Position numbers and translations under genes: made by a program. Shown here one piece after another: positions 1 to 14,015 of a DNA stretch of 64,000 bases; position 1 is the stretch's first letter, and every line of letters begins with the position of its first letter. Where the stretch lies: positions 4,431,501 to 4,495,500 of the forward strand of contig NZ_CP121695.1 of assembly GCF_029761915.1 (NCBI RefSeq), in the 5' to 3' direction. Below the pieces are notes generated by a model that was not told where the DNA came from, did no database searches, and worked only from the letters and a program-made list of their open reading frames with translations. Origin of the DNA: Bradyrhizobium sp. CB1650. GTDB lineage: Bacteria > Pseudomonadota > Alphaproteobacteria > Rhizobiales > Xanthobacteraceae.

Positions 1-468
1 CCATTCATGATGGCGCTGATCAACACGCGCAACGTCCATCGTTCCAACATGCTGATGGGCTTCCCTTACGGCAAGGAATTCGTCTACGACGAGATGGTCC
101 TGACCGGTCCCGGCGAGAAGGGCGAGGCGAATGCGAAGCGCGTGATGGCCGCCAATGCGGAGAAGACGGGCCCGAATGCGCCGAAGCCGGGCGAGGGTCC
201 TTCGAAGGAAGAACGGGAAAGCGGCCGCTTCGATCTGCTCTATGTTGCAATCGCGCCCGACGGCCGCCAGGTCCGCGCCGGCGTCACCGGCGACCGCGAC
301 CCCGGTTACGGCTCGACCTCGAAGATGATCTCGGAATGCGCGATCTGCCTGTTGCACGATGCGACGGATGTGGCGACCGGCTTCTGGACGCCCGGCGCGG
401 CGATGCAGCACAAGCTGATCAAGCGGTTGCAGGATCACGCTGGGCTGACGTTCAGGGTCGAAGGCTAA
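1..468 (+). CDS. Saccharopine dehydrogenase-like (trans-acting enoyl reductase family) protein, C-terminal part
   Basis: The reading frame is open from the first base of the window, so the 5' part of the gene lies outside. The 155 visible residues match the C-terminal third of the next gene (481-1674) at roughly four residues in five, including NTRNVHRSNMLMGFPYG, GEGPSKEER and the ending MQHKLIKRLQDHAGLTF. The full-length neighbour has a Rossmann-type N-terminus, so this is the tail of a tandem paralogue of the saccharopine dehydrogenase / trans-acting enoyl reductase superfamily. The substrate is unknown. It ends 12 bases before the next start, so the two copies are probably co-transcribed. 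The DNA of the last 45 or so bases is almost identical between the copies, which suggests recent duplication or gene conversion. Confidence 0.85.
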   Translation, partial: PFMMALINTRNVHRSNMLMGFPYGKEFVYDEMVLTGPGEKGEANAKRVMAANAEKTGPNAPKPGEGPSKEERESGRFDLLYVAIAPDGRQVRAGVTGDRDPGYGSTSKMISECAICLLHDATDVATGFWTPGAAMQHKLIKRLQDHAGLTFRVEG

Positions 469-480
469 GTTCGAGCGGCC

Positions 481-1674
481 GTGCGGGAAACTCGATCCGT
501 GTCGTCGAAGTTCGACATCGTTGTCTACGGCGCGACCGGATATACCGGCCGGCTGATCGCCGAGTACCTCGCTGCACAGTACGCCGGCGACAGCGCGCTG
601 ACATGGGCGATGGCCGGGCGAAGCAGGGACAAGCTCGCGTCGGTTCGCGACGCGATTGGCGCACCCGCTGACACGCCGCTCATTGTTGCTGATGCCGCCG
701 ATCCTGCGTCGTTGCGCGCGATGGTCGATCAAGCGAAGCTGGTGATCACCACCGTCGGCCCGTACCAGCTTTATGGCTCCGATCTGCTCGCTGCCTGTGT
801 CGCGTCGGGCACGGACTACATGGACCTCTGCGGTGAGCCGATCTGGTTGAAGCAGATGATCGACAGGCATGAGGCGGCAGCCAAAGCGAGCGGCGCGCGC
901 ATCATGGTCTCCTGCGGTTTCGACTCGGTGCCGTTCGAGCTCGGTGCGTTCTTCGTGCAGGAGGAAGCCAGACGCGCGTTCGGCGCGCCGGCGCCGCGCG
1001 TCAAGGGCCGCGTCCGCGATATCAGCTGGAAGTTCTCCGGCGGCACTTCGGCGAGCGCGAGGGTCACCTACGAGGCAGTTGCGCAGGATCTCAGCCTGGT
1101 GTCGATCCTCAAAAATCCCTTTGCATTCACGCCCGGTTTTGAAGGTCCGAAGCAGCCGCGCGGCAACAAGCCCGTCTTTGAAGAAGATCTGCAATCCTGG
1201 GCCGCACCGTTCGCGATGGCGACGCTGAACACGCGCAACGTCCATCGCTCCAACATGCTGATGGGATTCCCGTATGGCAGGGACTTCGTCTATGACGAGA
1301 TGGTGCTGACGGGGGCTGGAGAGGAAGGGCAGGTTAACGCGAAGCGCGTCATGGCGGCCAACGGCGAGAAGACCGGTCCCGACGCGCTCAAGCCCGGCGA
1401 AGGGCCGTCGAAGGAGGAGCGCGACAACGGTCATTACGATCTGCTCTACGTTGCGATTGCGCCTGATGGCCGTCAGGTTCGCGCGGCGGTCAAGGGCGAT
1501 CTCGATCCTGGCTATGCATCAACGGCGAAGATCATCTCCGAATGCGCGATCTGCCTGTTGCGCGATGCGACGGACGTGGCGGCCGGCTTCTGGACGCCCG
1601 GCGCGGGGATGCAACACAAGCTGATCAAGCGGTTGCAGGATCACGCTGGGCTGACGTTCCGGAAAGAAAAGTAG
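481..1674 (+). CDS. Saccharopine dehydrogenase-like / trans-acting enoyl reductase family protein
   Basis: A 397-residue protein opening with a dinucleotide-binding Rossmann motif (FDIVVYGATGYTGRLIAEYL, about residues 11-30). It then has the conserved segments GPYQLYGSDLLAAC and SCGFDSVPFELG that are typical of the saccharopine dehydrogenase-like family, whose bacterial members act on lipids or polyketides as enoyl reductases. An NAD(P)-dependent reductase is therefore likely, with unknown substrate. The GTG at 481 is used here; a second in-frame GTG at 499 would remove six residues and is equally plausible. It follows a closely related gene in tandem and is followed by a palindromic repeat at 1686-1764. 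The length is normal for the family and no cofactor-site damage is visible. Confidence 0.85.
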   Translation: MRETRSVSSKFDIVVYGATGYTGRLIAEYLAAQYAGDSALTWAMAGRSRDKLASVRDAIGAPADTPLIVADAADPASLRAMVDQAKLVITTVGPYQLYGSDLLAACVASGTDYMDLCGEPIWLKQMIDRHEAAAKASGARIMVSCGFDSVPFELGAFFVQEEARRAFGAPAPRVKGRVRDISWKFSGGTSASARVTYEAVAQDLSLVSILKNPFAFTPGFEGPKQPRGNKPVFEEDLQSWAAPFAMATLNTRNVHRSNMLMGFPYGRDFVYDEMVLTGAGEEGQVNAKRVMAANGEKTGPDALKPGEGPSKEERDNGHYDLLYVAIAPDGRQVRAAVKGDLDPGYASTAKIISECAICLLRDATDVAAGFWTPGAGMQHKLIKRLQDHAGLTFRKEK

Positions 1675-6632: not shown

Positions 6633-7766
6633 TTAATGATTGACAAATGCGTCGCGGTAGCCGGCGAGCACGCCATCGACCATCGCCTGCTGGGAGAAAT
6701 GTGCCGAAATGCGCTCGCGCAAGGACGCCGCGCGCTGCGCGGTTGACTGTGCGTCCTCGAGCGCGGCCAAAATCGCCTCCGCCATGGCGTCGGCATTGCT
6801 CGGCGCGAACAGGGCCGGGCTATCGGTGCCGAAGATCTCCGGGATGCCGCCGACCCGTGCCGCGATCATGGGAATGCCGGCCGCGCCCGCCTCGATCACG
6901 ACATAGGGCATGGAGTCGCCGCGCGAGGGAACGACGAGCAGCCGCCCCTTGGAAAAGCCGTAGCGCGCCTTGACGTGGCCGATGAAGCGGATCGCACCGG
7001 ACAGGCCGAGCTTCTCCACCTGCGCTTTCAGCGCCGCCGTCTCCTCGCCGTCTCCGCCGAGCGTCAGCGTGACCTTCCGTCCCTGGGCGTGCAGGCGCGC
7101 CACCGCATCGACCAGGAGGTCGGCGCCCTTGATGTGCCTGAACTCGCCGACATAGGCGAGGTCGGTGGCGTCATCGGCGGTGACGACGGGCTCGAATTCC
7201 TCGGGTGTGACGCCGTTGAAGACACAGTGGACCACGCCCTTGGGCGTGCCGACGATGCGCTGATAGGTGTCGCGGGCAAATGCGCTCTCGAACAGGAACA
7301 GGTCGGTACTGCCCATCAGCGCGCGCTCGAGCCGCGCGTAAAACTCGCCCTTGAAGGTGTGCAGCGGATAATGCAACGAGCCGCCATGCGGCGTGTAGAT
7401 GCGGATGGTGTCGTCGGCGCGCCGCCGCATGCGGACGAAAGCGCCGGCCTTGGCGCCGTGGCCATGCATGACATCCGGCTCGAGCTTGACGATCAGGCGC
7501 CGCATGCGCAGCCACACGAGAAAATCGTCGGGCGACGGCTCGCGGCGGATCGCCAGCCGGTGCACGCCGAGCTTCAGCCGCGGCGCGAGCTCCGTGAGCG
7601 CCTTCTCGGCACGCTCGCCGCCGGTCAGACTATCGGCGAGGATCCCGACATGATGTCCGCGATCGACCTGGCCGTTGGCGAGGTCGAGGATGTGACGGAA
7701 GATGCCGCCGACGGGCGCGCGCACGGCGTGCAGGATGCGAAGCGGCTGGTCGGGAGAGGGAGGCAT
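6633..7766 (-). CDS. Glycosyltransferase family 4 (EPS biosynthesis)
   Basis: A 377-residue GT-B fold glycosyltransferase. The N-terminal domain begins LRILHAVRAPVGGIFRHILDL with the GG loop of GT4 enzymes. The C-terminal domain has the nucleotide-sugar signature VPSRGDSMPYVVIEAGAAGIP, giving the E-x7-E-like spacing, followed by GGIPEIF. It probably adds a sugar to the lipid-linked EPS intermediate in the cytoplasm; donor and acceptor are unknown. It lies upstream of the initiating transferase on the same strand with a 61-base gap, and is divergent from the Wzc-like gene, so a two-way promoter should lie in 7767-7960. Confidence 0.9.
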   Translation of the reverse strand: MPPSPDQPLRILHAVRAPVGGIFRHILDLANGQVDRGHHVGILADSLTGGERAEKALTELAPRLKLGVHRLAIRREPSPDDFLVWLRMRRLIVKLEPDVMHGHGAKAGAFVRMRRRADDTIRIYTPHGGSLHYPLHTFKGEFYARLERALMGSTDLFLFESAFARDTYQRIVGTPKGVVHCVFNGVTPEEFEPVVTADDATDLAYVGEFRHIKGADLLVDAVARLHAQGRKVTLTLGGDGEETAALKAQVEKLGLSGAIRFIGHVKARYGFSKGRLLVVPSRGDSMPYVVIEAGAAGIPMIAARVGGIPEIFGTDSPALFAPSNADAMAEAILAALEDAQSTAQRAASLRERISAHFSQQAMVDGVLAGYRDAFVNH

Positions 7767-7960: not shown

Positions 7961-10213
7961 ATGCGTTTGGCGTTCTGGCGTGCCGGCAAGGACAAGGCGG
8001 TGGTCGCGCGGGCTGTCTCGAAGGCCAAAGCCAAGCCTGAGACCAAAGCCAAGGTTGAAGCCCAGCCTGCGCCTGCTGCAGTGAAGCGGGCACTGATCGA
8101 ATCCGGCGACATCGATCTGCACGCGCTGGGCGCAGCACTGGCCCGCAAGCGCGGCTGGATCATCGTGCCAACGGTGTTGGCGCTGGTATTGTCGGTCGCC
8201 GGTGTCAATCTGGTGACGCCGCGCTACAAGTCCGAGTCGCGCATCCTCATCGACGGTCGCGAGAACGTGTTCCTGCGCCCGAACAGCGATCGCACCGAGG
8301 AGCGGCAGGCGCTCGACGCCGAGGCCGTCACCAGCCAGGTGCAACTCGTGCTGTCGCGCGATCTCGCGCGTGAGATCATCAAGAAGAACAAGCTGGCGGA
8401 ACGGCCCGAATTCGATCCGGTGCTGCAAGGCATCTCGCCGCTGAAATCGCTGGCGGCGCTGGTCGGCGTCGGCCGCGATCCGTTCTCGATGACGCCGGAA
8501 GAGCGTGTGCTGGACGCCTATTACGAGCGGCTCCAGGCATACGCCGTCGACAAGTCGCGCGTCATCGTGGTCGAATTCCAGTCGGCCGATCCGGACCTCG
8601 CCGCGCGCGTCGCCAATTCGATCGCCGAAGGCTACCTCGTGCTGCAACAGAATGCGCGCCAGGACCAGGCGCGCAACGCGAGCCAGTGGTTGGCGGGCGA
8701 GATCGAGAATTTGCGCAAGAAGGTCTCCGACGCCGAGGCCAAGGTCGAGGACTTCCGTTCCAAGTCGAGTCTGTTCGTCGGCACCAACAACACGACGCTG
8801 TCGAACCAGCAGATGGGTGAGGTCAACACCCAGCTCAACAATGCGCGCGCACTCAAGGCCGACGCCGAGACCAAGGCGCGGCTGATCCGCGAGATGCTCC
8901 AGAGCGGCAAGCCGATCGAAGCGTCCGAGGTGCTCAACTCGGAACTGATGCGGCGCCTGTCCGAGCAGCGCGTGACGCTGCGCGCCCAGCTCGCCGAACA
9001 ATCCTCGACGCTGCTCGGCAACCATCCGCGCATCAAGGAATTGAAGGCCCAGCTCGGCGATCTCGACACCCAGATCCGCGACGAGGCGGGCAAGATCTCG
9101 CGCTCGCTTGAAAATGACGCGCGCATCGCCAGCGGCCGGGTCGACGGCCTGACCGCAAGCCTCGAGCAGCTCAAGAAGCAGGCGACCTCGACCAACGGCC
9201 AGGACGTCCAGCTCCGTGCGCTGGAGCGCGAGGCCAAGGCGCAGCGCGACCTGCTCGAGACCTATCTCGCCAAGTACCGCGAGGCCAACACCCGCGAGAC
9301 CATCGATACCGCGCCGACGGAGGGCCGCATCATCTCGCGCGCCATCGTCTCGAATACGCCGGCCTATCCGAAGAAGCTGCCGATCGTGCTGATCGCGACG
9401 CTGGCGACGCTGCTGCTCTCGTCCGGAATCGTCGTCACCGGCGAACTCCTGCGCCAGACTGCGCCGCGCGCGATTGCCGCACTCATCCCGTCGTCGCCGG
9501 AACCGGTGCGCCATGAGCCGGTCATCGATGCCGTGGCGGCCGACGATTCCATGATTGCAGAGTCGGCACCGCTGCAGCCGGACATGACGCCGGATGCGGA
9601 CATCACCGAATTTGCCGAGATCGAGCAGTTGGCCGAGCGCCTGCGCGCCGCGGGCACGGCGGCGAAGAAGGTCACGGTGCTCGGTACCGCGGCCGGCGAG
9701 GCCATCACGCTGTCGACGTTGACGCTGGCCCGGCATCTGGCGCGCGACGCCCGGGTCGTCGTGGTCGATCTCGCCACGTCCTCGCCCACGATTGCCGCCG
9801 TATCCGTCGATGCCTCGGCGCCCGGCCTTGCCGAGCTGATGCAGGGCGATGCGTCGTTCGCGCAAGTGATTACCAAGGACAGGCTCTCCCGGCTGCATCT
9901 GGTCATGGCCGGCCGTCCGGGCTTCGACCGCGGCCTGCTTCAGTCGCCGAGAGTGACGCTCGCGATCGATGCGCTGCTCAGGGTCTACGACCACGTGCTG
10001 CTCGACGCCGGAAGCGCTTCCGACCTGCCGGCCGAGTTGCTGACAACCAATGCGCGCGCCGTCGTGGTGCCCGACGCCGCGATGGTCGCGGACGCGCGCA
10101 CGCTGATGTGCGATCAACTCAGGGCGGTCGGCTTCAGCGAAGTGACGATGCTGAGCAAGCCTGTGCAGCCGCCGGACGCGCCGGACGCCGGCCTGCGCGT
10201 CGTCGCGGCGTAG
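7961..10213 (+). CDS. Wzc/GumC-like polysaccharide co-polymerase with degenerate kinase domain
   Basis: A 750-residue chain-length-determinant protein with a first membrane helix at about residues 65-85 (GWIIVPTVLALVLSVAGVNL) and the Wzz domain after it. Long periplasmic coiled coils follow, including NASQWLAGEIENLRKKVSDAE and repeated heptad-like stretches to about 450. The Pro-rich second helix is PKKLPIVLIATLATLLLSS (about 468-486). The C-terminal Rossmann-like domain (from about 570) corresponds to the BY-kinase, but the P-loop SxxPGEGKT is replaced by GTAAGEAIT, so the lysine is missing. The second Asp of Walker A' is also lost (VVVVDLATSSP). No C-terminal tyrosine cluster is present. 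It should control EPS chain length and export as a scaffold without kinase activity. The ATG at 7961 follows GGGAGTGTGAG. Confidence 0.9.
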   Translation: MRLAFWRAGKDKAVVARAVSKAKAKPETKAKVEAQPAPAAVKRALIESGDIDLHALGAALARKRGWIIVPTVLALVLSVAGVNLVTPRYKSESRILIDGRENVFLRPNSDRTEERQALDAEAVTSQVQLVLSRDLAREIIKKNKLAERPEFDPVLQGISPLKSLAALVGVGRDPFSMTPEERVLDAYYERLQAYAVDKSRVIVVEFQSADPDLAARVANSIAEGYLVLQQNARQDQARNASQWLAGEIENLRKKVSDAEAKVEDFRSKSSLFVGTNNTTLSNQQMGEVNTQLNNARALKADAETKARLIREMLQSGKPIEASEVLNSELMRRLSEQRVTLRAQLAEQSSTLLGNHPRIKELKAQLGDLDTQIRDEAGKISRSLENDARIASGRVDGLTASLEQLKKQATSTNGQDVQLRALEREAKAQRDLLETYLAKYREANTRETIDTAPTEGRIISRAIVSNTPAYPKKLPIVLIATLATLLLSSGIVVTGELLRQTAPRAIAALIPSSPEPVRHEPVIDAVAADDSMIAESAPLQPDMTPDADITEFAEIEQLAERLRAAGTAAKKVTVLGTAAGEAITLSTLTLARHLARDARVVVVDLATSSPTIAAVSVDASAPGLAELMQGDASFAQVITKDRLSRLHLVMAGRPGFDRGLLQSPRVTLAIDALLRVYDHVLLDAGSASDLPAELLTTNARAVVVPDAAMVADARTLMCDQLRAVGFSEVTMLSKPVQPPDAPDAGLRVVAA

Positions 10214-10268
10214 CTTTCTTCCCCTCACCCCTTGTGGGTGAGGGTAGGCAGCGGACAAGTGGAGAGTT

Positions 10269-11450
10269 TTACCCGAACGCCCGCCGCAGTTTCCGCGCGA
10301 GGTCGAACAGCATCTGGTTCTGCTTGACCAGGCGTTTGCCGTGGCTCAGCGACGACATCGCGATTGCCGCGAGCTTGCCGCGCGAGGTCAGTGGGATAAA
10401 GCTGTCGAAGATGTCCTCGTCGTCCTTGCAGAACATCCGCTTGTAGTCGTCCGAGCCGATGCCGAGGTCGAGCACGCGGTAACCGCGCTCGGCGCAGCGG
10501 TCGATGATGTAGCGCATCAGGATCAGGCCGGGGCTGTAGCGTGCATGGTCCGACAGCGTGTAGGTGTTGAACATCATCGAGAAGCGTTGGCCGTCGGCGA
10601 CGCCCGCGAAGATCGCGATCACCTCGTCGTCGCATTCGAGCGCATGGATGTCGATGATGCGGCCTTCACCGCGCCGCATCAGGCATGCGCTGCGGATGAA
10701 CTCTTCGACGCCGGGCTCGGCGAACACGTTCGGCAGTTTCTGTTCCGCCATCCGCGCCGGCTTGATGCGAAGGAACCAATCGAGCAGGCGGGTGATGTCC
10801 TCGTCCGTGGCGGCGAGGTGATGGCGATAGCCTGCGAGCGCCTGGAGCTTCTTTTCCTTGCTCTTCAGGCGGCGGCGGAAGGAATTGCTGATCCGTGACG
10901 CCGGCGGACCGCCAGGCTCCATCGCAAGGACCGGGCAGCCATTTATCGAGTTCTGCCGCGGCAGCAGCGCGAACGGGTTCTGCTGGCCGTGCCAGCGCAG
11001 CGGCTGCTGCGTCAGCGCCAGCACATCGACATTGCCGCGCAATGCTGCAAGCAGTGCGTCGAGATCGGCGGCGACGGCTTGCGCGGCGAACTCGGCGTTC
11101 CACAGGCCCATGTTGAAGGTCGTATGCTTGCCGCCCATGAAGCAGGCCGTGCGCACACCATGGCTTTGGCGCAGCGAGAGCGGAAGCAGCACGAGCGGCC
11201 GACGCTCGGCGTCGTAAGCGATCACAATGAAGGGGCGGGCGGCTTCGTGTTCGCCGACGAGCCGCTGCCACGGGCTCAACAGATCGAAGCGCTGATAGGG
11301 TGTCGAGAGGTGGCCCGGCCCCTCGAAGGCGCGCCAGACCGGCTCGGCCTCTTTGAGATCACTGACGACGTCGACATGCGCGATACGGCTCGCTTTCGAC
11401 CGCGCTGGCGCTTCTGCCGTCCGGCTTTGCATCGCCGCAGCCATGGTCAT
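10269..11450 (-). CDS. CelD/BcsL-like acetyltransferase (GNAT fold, Acetyltransf_6)
   Basis: About 393 residues from the Met at 11450 (MTMAAAMQ). The frame stays open further upstream, but that part is antisense to the next gene and has no family similarity. The N-terminal half carries the FEGPGHLSTPYQRFDLLSPWQ region. The C-terminal half has the GNAT-like core with DEVIAIFAGVADGQRFSMMFNTYT and RYSPGLILMRYIIDRCAERGYRVLDLGIG. These are features of BioF2-like / cellulose-synthesis CelD acetyltransferases. Members decorate extracellular polysaccharides or their precursors, so acyl substitution of the EPS is likely. It faces the Wzc-like gene tail-to-tail and is divergent from the NodB-fold gene. 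Confidence 0.85.
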   Translation of the reverse strand: MTMAAAMQSRTAEAPARSKASRIAHVDVVSDLKEAEPVWRAFEGPGHLSTPYQRFDLLSPWQRLVGEHEAARPFIVIAYDAERRPLVLLPLSLRQSHGVRTACFMGGKHTTFNMGLWNAEFAAQAVAADLDALLAALRGNVDVLALTQQPLRWHGQQNPFALLPRQNSINGCPVLAMEPGGPPASRISNSFRRRLKSKEKKLQALAGYRHHLAATDEDITRLLDWFLRIKPARMAEQKLPNVFAEPGVEEFIRSACLMRRGEGRIIDIHALECDDEVIAIFAGVADGQRFSMMFNTYTLSDHARYSPGLILMRYIIDRCAERGYRVLDLGIGSDDYKRMFCKDDEDIFDSFIPLTSRGKLAAIAMSSLSHGKRLVKQNQMLFDLARKLRRAFG

Positions 11451-11549
11451 TCGCGAAACCTGTCGAGAAACGAAAATTTGCGTATTTCGGCCTATGGCCG
11501 ACCTTTGCAAACAAATGTCAACAAAGGGTAAGGACAGTGGCGGAGGGAC

Positions 11550-12629
11550 GTGCCGCCGGTGAATGCGCGGGAAGGGGGGATATTGGCATCCGACGACAGA
11601 TGGCGGGAGCGGCTGCGCCATGAACTGGCCTGGTTCACCGGCCAACCCCTGCTGCGCGGGCGCGGCGCCGGGGCAATCCTGCGCTTTGAGCACGTGCGGC
11701 CCCGACGGAGCGGTGTGTTCCAGCCGCTGCGCGCGCGCGAGATCACGCCGCAATTCCTCGACCGTGTCATTCGCACGCTGAAGCGCTGGCGATACGACTT
11801 TCTCGGCATGGACGACGTTTGCCGGCGCGCGGTCACGCTGCCGGAGCAGCGACGCTTCGTAGCGCTGACCTTCGATGGCGCCGGCAAGGATCTGATCAAC
11901 TTTGCCTATCCGGTGCTGGCGCGCCATGCGGTGCCATTCACCGTGTACGTTCCCACCGCCTTTCCCGACGGCGTGGGCGAAGCCTGGTGGCTCGCACTCG
12001 AACGGATGATCGCGCGTGAAAGCCGCATCAGCTTCATGATGGGCGAGAGGGAGCAGCGCTTTGTCGTCACCGGCAATGCGGAGAAGCAGGCGCTGTTCAC
12101 CTTGATCGAGCGTTGGCTGCGCACGCTACCGCCGGCGGGCCTGTCCGCCGCGATCCACGATCTCTGCGCGCGCTACCGGATCGATCTCGCCGCCATCTCG
12201 CGCGAGGCATCGATGGATTGGGAGGACCTAACGAAGCTTGCGGCCGATCCGAACGTGACGTTAGGCAGCGCGACCGTCAATTATCCCGTGCTCGCCAACA
12301 CGAAGGATCCAGCAGCACTGCGCGAGATGACGATGGGAAAGGCGGTGGCGGAAGCGGCGCTTGGCCGCGAGATCCGGCATTTCGCGTTCCCGTTCGGCGA
12401 TCGCGCCGCGTTCCGGCGCAGCCACGTCGTGATGGCCGAGGAGGCGGGCTTTGCCAGCGCGGTATCGACCATATCGGGCATCGTGGAGACCGAAGGGCGC
12501 ACCAACCTGCGCGCGCTGCCGCGGATTTCATGGGACGGCCGGGTGCGCTCGCTGCGCATGCTGCGGGTGCTGGTGTCAGGCGTCGCCTTCGCGCCGGTGC
12601 GGCCGACCGGCAGCGGGCAAGCCATCTAG
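11550..12629 (+). CDS. NodB-fold polysaccharide deacetylase homologue lacking metal ligands
   Basis: About 350 residues related to the polysaccharide deacetylases found in EPS loci. Motif 1, normally TFDDG, reads LTFDGAGKD (about residues 109-117), so the metal-binding second Asp is Gly. Motif 2, normally (A/S)HTxxH, reads SATVNYPVLA (about 239-248), so both zinc-binding histidines are Ala and Tyr. The later FAFPFGDR motif is kept. The fold is intact but hydrolytic metal catalysis should be lost, so a carbohydrate-binding or structural role is more likely. Three starts are possible: GTG 11550, GTG 11559 and TTG 11583. The last has the strongest ribosome site, GGGAAGGGGGGA. Confidence 0.85.
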   Translation: MPPVNAREGGILASDDRWRERLRHELAWFTGQPLLRGRGAGAILRFEHVRPRRSGVFQPLRAREITPQFLDRVIRTLKRWRYDFLGMDDVCRRAVTLPEQRRFVALTFDGAGKDLINFAYPVLARHAVPFTVYVPTAFPDGVGEAWWLALERMIARESRISFMMGEREQRFVVTGNAEKQALFTLIERWLRTLPPAGLSAAIHDLCARYRIDLAAISREASMDWEDLTKLAADPNVTLGSATVNYPVLANTKDPAALREMTMGKAVAEAALGREIRHFAFPFGDRAAFRRSHVVMAEEAGFASAVSTISGIVETEGRTNLRALPRISWDGRVRSLRMLRVLVSGVAFAPVRPTGSGQAI

Positions 12630-12835
12630 GCGCGGTCGGGTCGCTGCATCCAGCTCACGATCGGCATCGCCGGCAAGACCCAACCCATGCCCGCCACGAC
12701 GTAGTAGATCGCCTGCCGCCAGCCGGACTCGGCGATCCACGGCATCTGCGCCAGCACCATGCCAAGCAGGGCCCAGACGGCGGCCAGCACCAGGAGCGCG
12801 ATGGTGCCGAGGAACTTGCGGGTGCGGATCGTCAT
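12626..12835 (-). CDS. DUF2842 family small membrane protein
   Basis: A 69-residue protein with two hydrophobic helices (about residues 9-30 and 42-60), of the DUF2842 type found in alphaproteobacteria. I recall this family beside heme A synthase genes, which is the arrangement here, with ctaA divergent 98 bases away. Its function is unknown; the placement hints at a part in cytochrome oxidase biogenesis. The stop overlaps the convergent NodB-fold gene by four bases. Confidence 0.75.
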   Translation of the reverse strand: MTIRTRKFLGTIALLVLAAVWALLGMVLAQMPWIAESGWRQAIYYVVAGMGWVLPAMPIVSWMQRPDRA

Positions 12836-12932
12836 GACGTGAGCTTTTGCGGCCTTTTGCGTAGCTTGCGCTGCGGGAGCGGGGGACTATAAGGGGCACG
12901 CAGTCCGGTTCAACCTTTGTTTTGCCCCTGAA

Positions 12933-14015
12933 ATGACGACGGTTTCCGCCCCGACCAAGCCATACCGCGCTCTGCGCTGGTGGCTCATTTGCGTGGCCGC
13001 GCTGATCGCGCTGATGGTGTTGGTCGGCGGTGCGACACGGCTGACCGAATCCGGGCTCTCCATCGTGGAATGGAAGCCGGTCACCGGGACTGTGCCGCCG
13101 CTCTCGGAGGCGCAATGGATCGACGCATTCGAGGCCTACAAGAAGATCCCGCAATATCGCGAGCTCAATGCCGGGATGACTCTCTTCGAGTTCAAGGAGA
13201 TCTTCTGGTGGGAATGGAGCCATCGGCTGCTCGGCCGCTTCATTGGCGTCGCCTATCTCCTGCCGTTCCTGTTCTTCCTGTGGCGCGGCGGCCTGCCCGG
13301 TGACTTGAAGCGGCGGTTGTGGCTGCTGTTCGCCCTCGGCGGCCTCCAGGGCGCGGTCGGCTGGTGGATGGTGGCCTCGGGCCTCTCTGGCCGGGTCGAG
13401 GTGTCGCAGTATCGGCTGGCGACGCATCTGGTGCTCGCGCTCCTGATCTTCGCCGGGATCGTCTGGACCGTGCGGCGCCTGGCTGAGCGGCCGCAGATCG
13501 TTGCGCCGGTGCGGCTGAAGCTGACGAGCACCTTGCTCGTCGTCGTGACCTTCGTGCAGATCTATTTCGGCGCGCTGGTTGCGGGCCTGCGTGCCGGGCG
13601 CGCCTACAACACCTGGCCGGGAATCGATGGCACATTCATTCCGTCGGCGGACCGGCTGTGGTTCGAGACGCCGTGGTGGCGCAACATGTTCGACAATGTG
13701 CTGACGGTGCAGTTCGAGCACCGCATGACGGCGTACGCGCTGTTCGTGTTGGCGGTATTGCATGCGTTCGATGCAGTGCGATGCCGCGTCGGGACGGCGG
13801 CGCGTGGCGCACTGTGGCTGTTTGCGGCCGTGAGCCTGCAAGCGGTGCTCGGCATCCTCACGCTCCTCAACCAGGTGCCGATTGGACTGGCGCTCGGCCA
13901 CCAGGCGGTCGCGATCGCCGTGTTGACGCTTGCGGTGATGCAGGCGGAGCGGCTCGCCGCGCGGCAATCGGCGGAGGCGCAACCGCGTGCGGTTCCGGTC
14001 GGTCAGGCCGGTTAG
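12933..14015 (+). CDS. ctaA: Heme A synthase
   Basis: A 360-residue integral membrane protein with eight predicted helices, of the alphaproteobacterial/mitochondrial Cox15 type. It converts heme O to heme A for aa3-type cytochrome oxidase. Visible hallmarks are [20 protein letters not shown] after helix 1, [14 protein letters not shown] with a heme-ligand His, [32 protein letters not shown] and the last ligand His in ALGHQAVAI. The length is usual for the Cox15 group. The neighbouring DUF2842 gene is divergent; the small secreted protein gene downstream is convergent and overlaps by four bases. Confidence 0.96.

Follow-up and report, generated by a model that had tools for sequence, protein, structure and literature searches.

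The present analysis concerns a window of 64,000 nucleotides from Bradyrhizobium sp. CB1650 (contig NZ_CP121695.1, positions 4,431,501 to 4,495,500 of the forward strand) and, in particular, a gene of a polysaccharide cluster whose product has the NodB fold of family CE4 deacetylases but lacks their metal ligands. As the initial annotation of this DNA stated, the reading frame is whole: 11550-12629 on the plus strand is open throughout, without an internal stop, and encodes 359 amino acids, among which the motifs ALTFDGAGKD, GSATVNYP and HFAFPFGDR are present. The product matches the Pfam family PF01522 (NodB fold) with 41.9 bits against a cut-off of 23.1. Translation likely starts at the TTG at 11583, which gives a protein of 348 amino acids matching database entry P0002 and is preceded by the run GGAAGGGG; GGAGG is also found before the GTG at 11550.

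The replacement of the Asp-His-His metal triad, proposed from the first inspection, is read in both the translation and the codons (Table 1). All metal ligands are indeed gone; a further loss had been overlooked, namely that of the motif-5 catalytic His, in whose place Glu47 stands (ILRFEHV, versus IFMLHHV in an intact paralogue). The motif-1 Asp109 is retained. Thus, among the features of a CE4/NodB deacetylase, the fold and the motif-1 Asp are found, whereas the triad and the motif-5 His are absent. The architecture is that of the NodB2 type (PgaB/IcaB/PplD), which is defined by a motif 5 N-terminal to motif 1 and an AYPYG-type motif 3 (PMC10967932): motif 5 lies at residues 43-49, and FAFPFGD corresponds to motif 3. 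Consistently, an AlphaFold model (mean predicted local distance difference test score, pLDDT, 75.9; predicted template modelling score, pTM, 0.76) has PplD, IcaB and PgaB as its best structural matches, all of which are active, metal-dependent deacetylases. PplD has been described as binding zinc through Asp-His-His, and its H105A and D167N mutants as behaving like a deletion (PMC8807736); because of this precedent, there is a strong case that the protein at the locus would be catalytically dead. It is scarcely credible that it is still a metal-dependent deacetylase using alternative ligands: although the fold persists along with much of the conserved framework, the replacing residues make up no usual ligand set, the Glu47 position is not conserved, and the motif-5 His, mutation of which is reported to abolish function in PplD (PMC8807736), has gone as well.

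Table 1. Features of the locus, in window coordinates.
Feature	Coordinates	Strand	Remarks
Pseudo-deacetylase, NodB2-type NodB fold, PF01522	11583..12629	+	Stop included; TTG start preferred, GTG 11550 possible
Motif 5 position	11688..11690	+	Catalytic His replaced by Glu47 (GAG); variable in the clade
Motif 1	11874..11879	+	Asp109 (GAT, 11874-11876), catalytic base, kept; Gly110 (GGC, 11877-11879), metal Asp lost
Motif 2	12270..12284	+	Ala241 (GCG, 12270-12272) and Tyr245 (TAT, 12282-12284) replace first and second metal His
W328-D-G-R331..S334..R339	12531..12566	+	Fixed anew among the pseudo-deacetylases; coordinates derived from residue numbering
Wzy/O-antigen-ligase-like polymerase, PF04932	3568..4824	-	
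Initiating sugar-phosphate transferase, WcaJ type, TIGR03023	4973..6571	-	494 bits, cut-off 411
GT4 glycosyltransferase	6633..7766	-	
Wzc-like chain-length/co-polymerase	7961..10213	+	Kinase-like part without Walker A Lys
GNAT/CelD-like acyltransferase, PF13480	10269..11450	-	Divergent neighbour
Intergenic stretch between divergent GNAT and pseudo-deacetylase genes	11451..11582		No sigma-70-like site
COX15/CtaA	12933..14015	+	Conserved flanking gene, position marker

The altered triad, whose conservation the initial annotation had set as a check, is conserved across Bradyrhizobium and beyond. An orthologue is found in all 45 same-genus genomes searched (36 including the own genome, and 9 more), and none of the 45, in each of which the triad was read, carries Asp-His-His; close orthologues with the intact triad, which the initial annotation had named as refuting evidence, did not turn up. 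Close matches (E at most 2e-94) occur in 47 of 198 same-family genomes; all 47 were fetched, and all are degenerate. A sequencing or frame artefact was ruled out by the open frame and by the same state in independent genomes. Across 150 distinct degenerate sequences, which were grouped by their metal positions and not by Asp109, the metal Asp is replaced by Gly (99%), the first His by Ala (91%) and the second by Tyr (93%), and Asp109 is kept in every one; the motif-5 position holds Glu (50%), Ala (24%), Gln (13%) or other residues, Asp and Arg among them. Moreover, in a comparison weighted towards other genera, which counts locus L030 twice, L60, W80, Y245, W328, D329, R331 and S334 are among the positions fixed in degenerate sequences that differ in intact ones; R339 is likewise fixed, yet occurs in 22% of intact sequences. 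These residues suggest that an interface was gained or the pocket rebuilt, and they contradict the view that only the active site carries substitutions. The same view is contradicted by the 35-47% identity to intact orthologues at the same position, by about a dozen other switched positions and by a different N-terminus.

Retention of the catalytic base in all 150 sequences despite the lost metal ligands, together with new residues fixed beyond Bradyrhizobium too, could also be explained by a metal-free enzyme with a rebuilt pocket (Y245, W328, D329, R331, S334, R339) that performs a different amino-sugar reaction. There are precedents: SwsB of Bacillus subtilis, a CE4-family lactam cyclase with an altered catalytic residue, is described as having no deacetylase activity and no apparent need of a transition metal (PMC12444981), and 3CL6 is described as a non-metal-dependent NodB-fold enzyme (PMC10967932). 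However, SwsB belongs to another CE4 group and is an active cyclase that lost the base and not the metal ligands, the reverse of the state seen here. In addition, the motif-5 position is unconstrained (E/A/Q/D/R and others), and sister lineages that have deleted the gene (see below) show that the cluster there does without its product. Such a neo-enzyme is thus considered unlikely.

The locus also exists with an intact protein, a situation that the initial annotation did not foresee. Outside the clade of the window protein, an HDDHH protein (the letters give the motif-5, motif-1 and motif-2 residues) that is 35-47% identical to it stands in the same gene order in 39 family genomes, which were scored as locus copies if at least one cluster or flanking gene adjoined (short contigs display just one or two neighbours). 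The same order with an intact copy also occurs in five genomes from other families of the order (L176, L212-L215). In a 108-row tree with the five catalytic columns masked, the 40 degenerate rows form one clade (Shimodaira-Hasegawa-like approximate likelihood ratio test, SH-aLRT, 99; stem 0.40), and after removal of long branches and the outgroup a degenerate clade of 39 rows is recovered (SH-aLRT 100). None of the 68 rows outside the clade shows the full loss: 65 read HDDHH, L208 reads RDDHH, L210 reads HDGHF, and L050 reads DDHH, with motif 5 unaligned. Confusion between paralogues was rejected, as gene order separates the locus copies from the dispersed clade described below. The loss of the catalytic set is therefore old and clade-wide and took place in a positional orthologue of intact enzymes: copies at the same position in the 39 family genomes outside the clade are intact.

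The branches closest to the clade are L208, in which motif 5 alone is lost, and L210, in which the metal Asp and the second His are lost; their grouping with the clade has a support of 91-92 and is not starred, and both carry Trp80, which is typical of the degenerate clade. Because L208 and L210 lost different residues, degeneration is read from these sequences as having run separately at least twice near the base of the clade. As a separate observation, partial losses of the catalytic set are seen at the locus in G095 (L208) and G073 (L210), a second copy in G093 (L343) reads HDGHH, and the metal Asp has become Gly in three separate lineages, the clade of the window counted.

The second unforeseen element is an intact paralogue in the same genome (G000:C1:9167534-9168613), which is 41% identical to the locus protein and has all five catalytic residues. 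Its neighbours, judged by eye, are unrelated to polysaccharide. The genes beside it (L160, G000:C1:9159000-9177000) are presumably those of aerobic benzoyl-CoA (box) degradation, an odd location for a polysaccharide deacetylase. Of the 47 genomes whose locus copy is degenerate, 46 contain the dispersed clade to which this paralogue belongs, the exception being G222, which is 89% complete. The clade also occurs in 19 genomes without a locus match; the residues were read in all 65, and all are HDDHH. It is absent from all 39 genomes whose intact locus copy was checked; second copies at E 1e-60 occur in only two of these, G093 and G094, and are of other descent. In G093, it is the locus copy that is intact and the second copy that has lost the metal Asp. 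Altogether, an intact second copy accompanies the degenerate locus in 49 of 50 genomes (the 46 of 47 plus G073, G095 and G097), although such copy-number counts are weakened by the relatedness of the genomes. The second copy of G073 has about 25 residues missing in the alignment, and G243, with two matches but 9% contamination, was not scored at the locus.

Furthermore, the gene is cleanly absent from 19 fetched loci that retain flanking cluster genes, with no remnant at E below 1e-3. The spacing between GNAT and COX15 is 462-601 bp at 18 of these deletion loci and 483 bp in G235, versus 1455-2260 bp at 146 loci. The dispersed paralogue is carried by 18 of the 19 genomes; the exception, G101, has neither the locus gene nor the paralogue. 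G102 (L284), which kept Wzc, GNAT and MetB and has no NodB or COX15 match, stands outside the 19, and G217 was left out of locus scoring, no GNAT match being listed for it and its sole Wzc match being at 28%. The deletions fall inside genera in which other members retain the gene (g44, g49, g50, g67); because of this pattern, the locus gene has probably been lost several times.

Purifying selection acts on the gene within Bradyrhizobium, as indicated by a median ratio of nonsynonymous to synonymous substitution rates (dN/dS) of 0.18 (1479 pairs, 116 sequences, among them two metagenome-assembled contigs labelled Alphaproteobacteria and one labelled Frankia; pairwise Nei-Gojobori estimates for sampled pairs with dS 0.1-1.2). 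The initial annotation had named a value well under 1 as a check. The medians of the neighbours are 0.19 (GNAT), 0.16 (Wzc), 0.16 (COX15), 0.12 (initiating transferase) and 0.10 (GT4), and the intact paralogue shows dN 0.05-0.20 at dS 0.33-0.95 (ten pairs, five sequences). A NodB domain without metal ligands that is conserved among orthologues and under purifying selection corresponds to what is called a CE4 pseudoenzyme. Across genera, by contrast, the degenerate form evolves 1.4-2.4 times faster relative to neighbouring genes than the intact form. The relative NodB distances, degenerate versus intact, are 1.73 versus 0.94 (COX15), 4.44 versus 3.20 (MetB), 1.69 versus 0.74 (Wzc) and 1.12 versus 0.47 (GNAT); they are medians from local alignments to the window proteins at 28 degenerate and 22 intact loci, hand-picked for flank length and spread. 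Saturation affects distant neighbours in part; of the four contrasts, that with MetB is the most secure. Constraint on the locus gene is relaxed, not lost.

These observations bear on slow decay, according to which the locus copy, with an intact paralogue present, would be functionless and drifting out of the genomes, with Bradyrhizobium yet to delete it. The 19 deletion loci, in genera where others keep the gene, and the faster evolution of the dead group relative to all four neighbours fit such a course. On the other hand, dN/dS in Bradyrhizobium is close to that of GNAT, Wzc and COX15, the gene is present in 45/45 genomes of the genus, and the replacing residues are themselves conserved. 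A frameshifted pseudogene was rejected: stops had been reported in some genome searches of relatives, but within the tblastn alignments of loci L001-L219 (L249-L258 left out) they are confined to G227 and G247, at residues 350-352. Drift towards loss is therefore judged distinctly improbable. The initial view that the gene is no decaying pseudogene holds as regards selection within Bradyrhizobium; it is weakened by the faster evolution across genera and the absence from 19 genomes retaining the cluster.

The surroundings proposed for the gene, those of polysaccharide synthesis, are constant. Among the degenerate loci, the GNAT acyltransferase gene is adjacent and divergent in all 129 whose upstream flank exceeds 1.5 kb, and COX15 is present in all 94 whose downstream flank exceeds 2.5 kb. 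A sigma-70 scan of 10150-13000 gave one promoter-like site (minus strand, 12886-12913) and none in the divergent intergenic stretch. As regards a possible unipolar-polysaccharide (UPP) or holdfast-type adhesin locus, for which a WcaJ/HfsE/UppE-like initiating transferase would be expected together with a GT, a Wzc-like protein and a GNAT, the initiating transferase matches TIGR03023 above its cut-off, whereas its match to the HfsE model falls short of the cut-off of that model; the genome has five PF02397 matches, and uppE was not singled out among them. The uppE gene corresponds to RPA2750 in R. palustris (PMC9133744), and the unipolar polysaccharide genes uppC and uppE have been reported as required for polar root attachment in B. 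ottawaense (PMC12727192). The Wzc-like protein is of interest in its own right: at about residues 571-590, it reads GTAAGEAITL, without a Walker A Lys, and its last 60 residues contain no Tyr. GK[ST] is absent from 145 of 149 distinct homologous segments and, by our own reading, lies off the P-loop place in the other four, so that the protein looks like an old pseudo-kinase of the same cluster.

The intact paralogue in 46/47 dead-copy genomes and the constant adjacency of GNAT would suit a dedicated activator or chaperone of either protein, a heteromeric form of pseudoenzyme control. However, 18 genomes have both the paralogue and GNAT and lack the locus gene, so that neither partner absolutely needs it, and a role of this kind is very unlikely. 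Control of the acetyltransferase, put forward at the outset, is likewise less likely as an essential function, because 19 genomes retain the acyltransferase without the pseudo-deacetylase gene.

The explanation that we favour, with somewhat more confidence than doubt, is that a fixed pseudo-deacetylase has been kept as a non-catalytic factor for glycan binding or assembly, with catalysis moved to the paralogue. The ancestor at this position would have been a metal-dependent NodB2-type de-N-acetylase of the polysaccharide cluster, its substrate perhaps a cytoplasmic, lipid-linked precursor; inspection of the locus protein by eye, without a predictor, shows no signal peptide. The common ancestor of Bradyrhizobium and its sister genera would have lost the metal Asp, the two metal His and the His of motif 5. 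The fold would have persisted together with the Asp of motif 1 and further conserved positions, and L60, W80, Y245, W328, D329, R331, S334 and R339 would have become fixed. Deacetylation, if still needed, would be carried out by the stand-alone paralogue, whose presence and residues are observed and whose activity we infer. The locus copy would most likely serve as a non-catalytic subunit, bound to the same (acyl-)sugar intermediate or to a partner within the cluster machinery, although glycan or partner binding is a weaker proposition than catalytic death. Such a role would be useful in Bradyrhizobium and dispensable in the several sister lineages that deleted the gene.

Several points weigh against this explanation. 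Repeated deletion with faster evolution also fits slow decay. The groups behind the residue tables were set by the triad itself, which makes those tables descriptive of the groups and no test of them. In G094, both copies are intact (the second is HDDHH), and a second copy thus does not force the loss. Finally, the association of a dead copy with an intact paralogue amounts to a single independent phylogenetic contrast in a count of independent pairs (73 rows; G222 and five named contigs left out) and may be a coincidence of descent; given one pair alone, we do not claim that the paralogue permitted the loss. A related possibility, which we hold to be unlikely, is that the deacetylase was split into two genes, the stand-alone enzyme keeping the chemistry and the in-cluster copy being rebuilt metal-free, with the new residues Y245, W328, D329, R331, S334 and R339 beside the retained Asp109, and now either converting the polymer precursor in a new way or presenting it to GNAT.

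A parallel comes from Caulobacter holdfast synthesis, in which HfsH, a putative deacetylase, and HfsK, a FemX-like GNAT, are described as acting on one polysaccharide adhesin (PMC8449245, PMC5362036), and it has been suggested that HfsK might acylate amines exposed by HfsH (PMC5362036). The locus likewise pairs a deacetylase-family protein with a GNAT, and its intact homologues match the HfsH model weakly. HfsH, however, has all five catalytic motifs, and the window protein gives no match to its model at E 0.001. By analogy, we propose that the adjacent GNAT may act like HfsK, with the amine supplied by the stand-alone paralogue.

NodB/CE4 pseudoenzymes as such are already known from the literature cited here. 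Ba0150 of Bacillus (PDB 4M1B), described as a catalytically inert CE4 pseudoenzyme with no bound metal (PMC10967932, PMC6115787), resembles the window protein in its NodB fold with changed motifs 1 and 2, but it is a Gram-positive protein of the NodB1 type that groups with MurNAc deacetylases, whereas the window protein is of the NodB2 type, belongs to a polysaccharide cluster and has intact orthologues at the same position. EcCDA (PDB 2VYO), described as a probably inactive NodB protein (PMC10967932), also lacks both motif-2 His; unlike the window protein, it has lost the motif-1 catalytic Asp too. BA3943 (PDB 7bkf; mentioned in PMC6115787), titled a CE4 family pseudoenzyme, is a weaker match than the NodB2 enzymes. 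BA0330 and BA0331 are CE4 proteins reported to keep the triad, to have no detected activity and to matter for the cell wall (PMC4505593). A polysaccharide deacetylase of B. japonicum is mentioned in PMC4070659 and PMC4070871, from which its identity with either gene discussed here could not be told. A search of open-licence papers found no report of this Bradyrhizobium pseudo-deacetylase; within that literature, two features seem to be new, namely a NodB2-type pseudoenzyme within a polysaccharide cluster and a single locus that displays a series of states.

Two further observations concern the window and the public record. An open reading frame at 7-468 (+), truncated at the edge of the window, shares 83% identity over 151 residues with the C-terminal portion of the frame at 481-1674 (+), and the pair is probably a tandem duplication. 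A public contig titled Frankia sp. RB7 (L125) holds the Bradyrhizobium locus at 85% identity and in the same order, and this entry is therefore probably contaminated or wrongly labelled.

Automatic annotation calls the Bradyrhizobium locus proteins "polysaccharide deacetylase" or "chitooligosaccharide deacetylase"; both names are probably misleading as to function, and the paralogue is the copy likely to be active. More broadly, a single genomic position offers a natural series that runs from the intact enzyme through two partial losses (one of motif 5 alone, the other of the metal Asp together with the second His) to a fixed pseudoenzyme and deletion, with constant neighbours that serve as internal controls. 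This series makes the question of why a dead enzyme is kept directly testable in genetically tractable soil bacteria.
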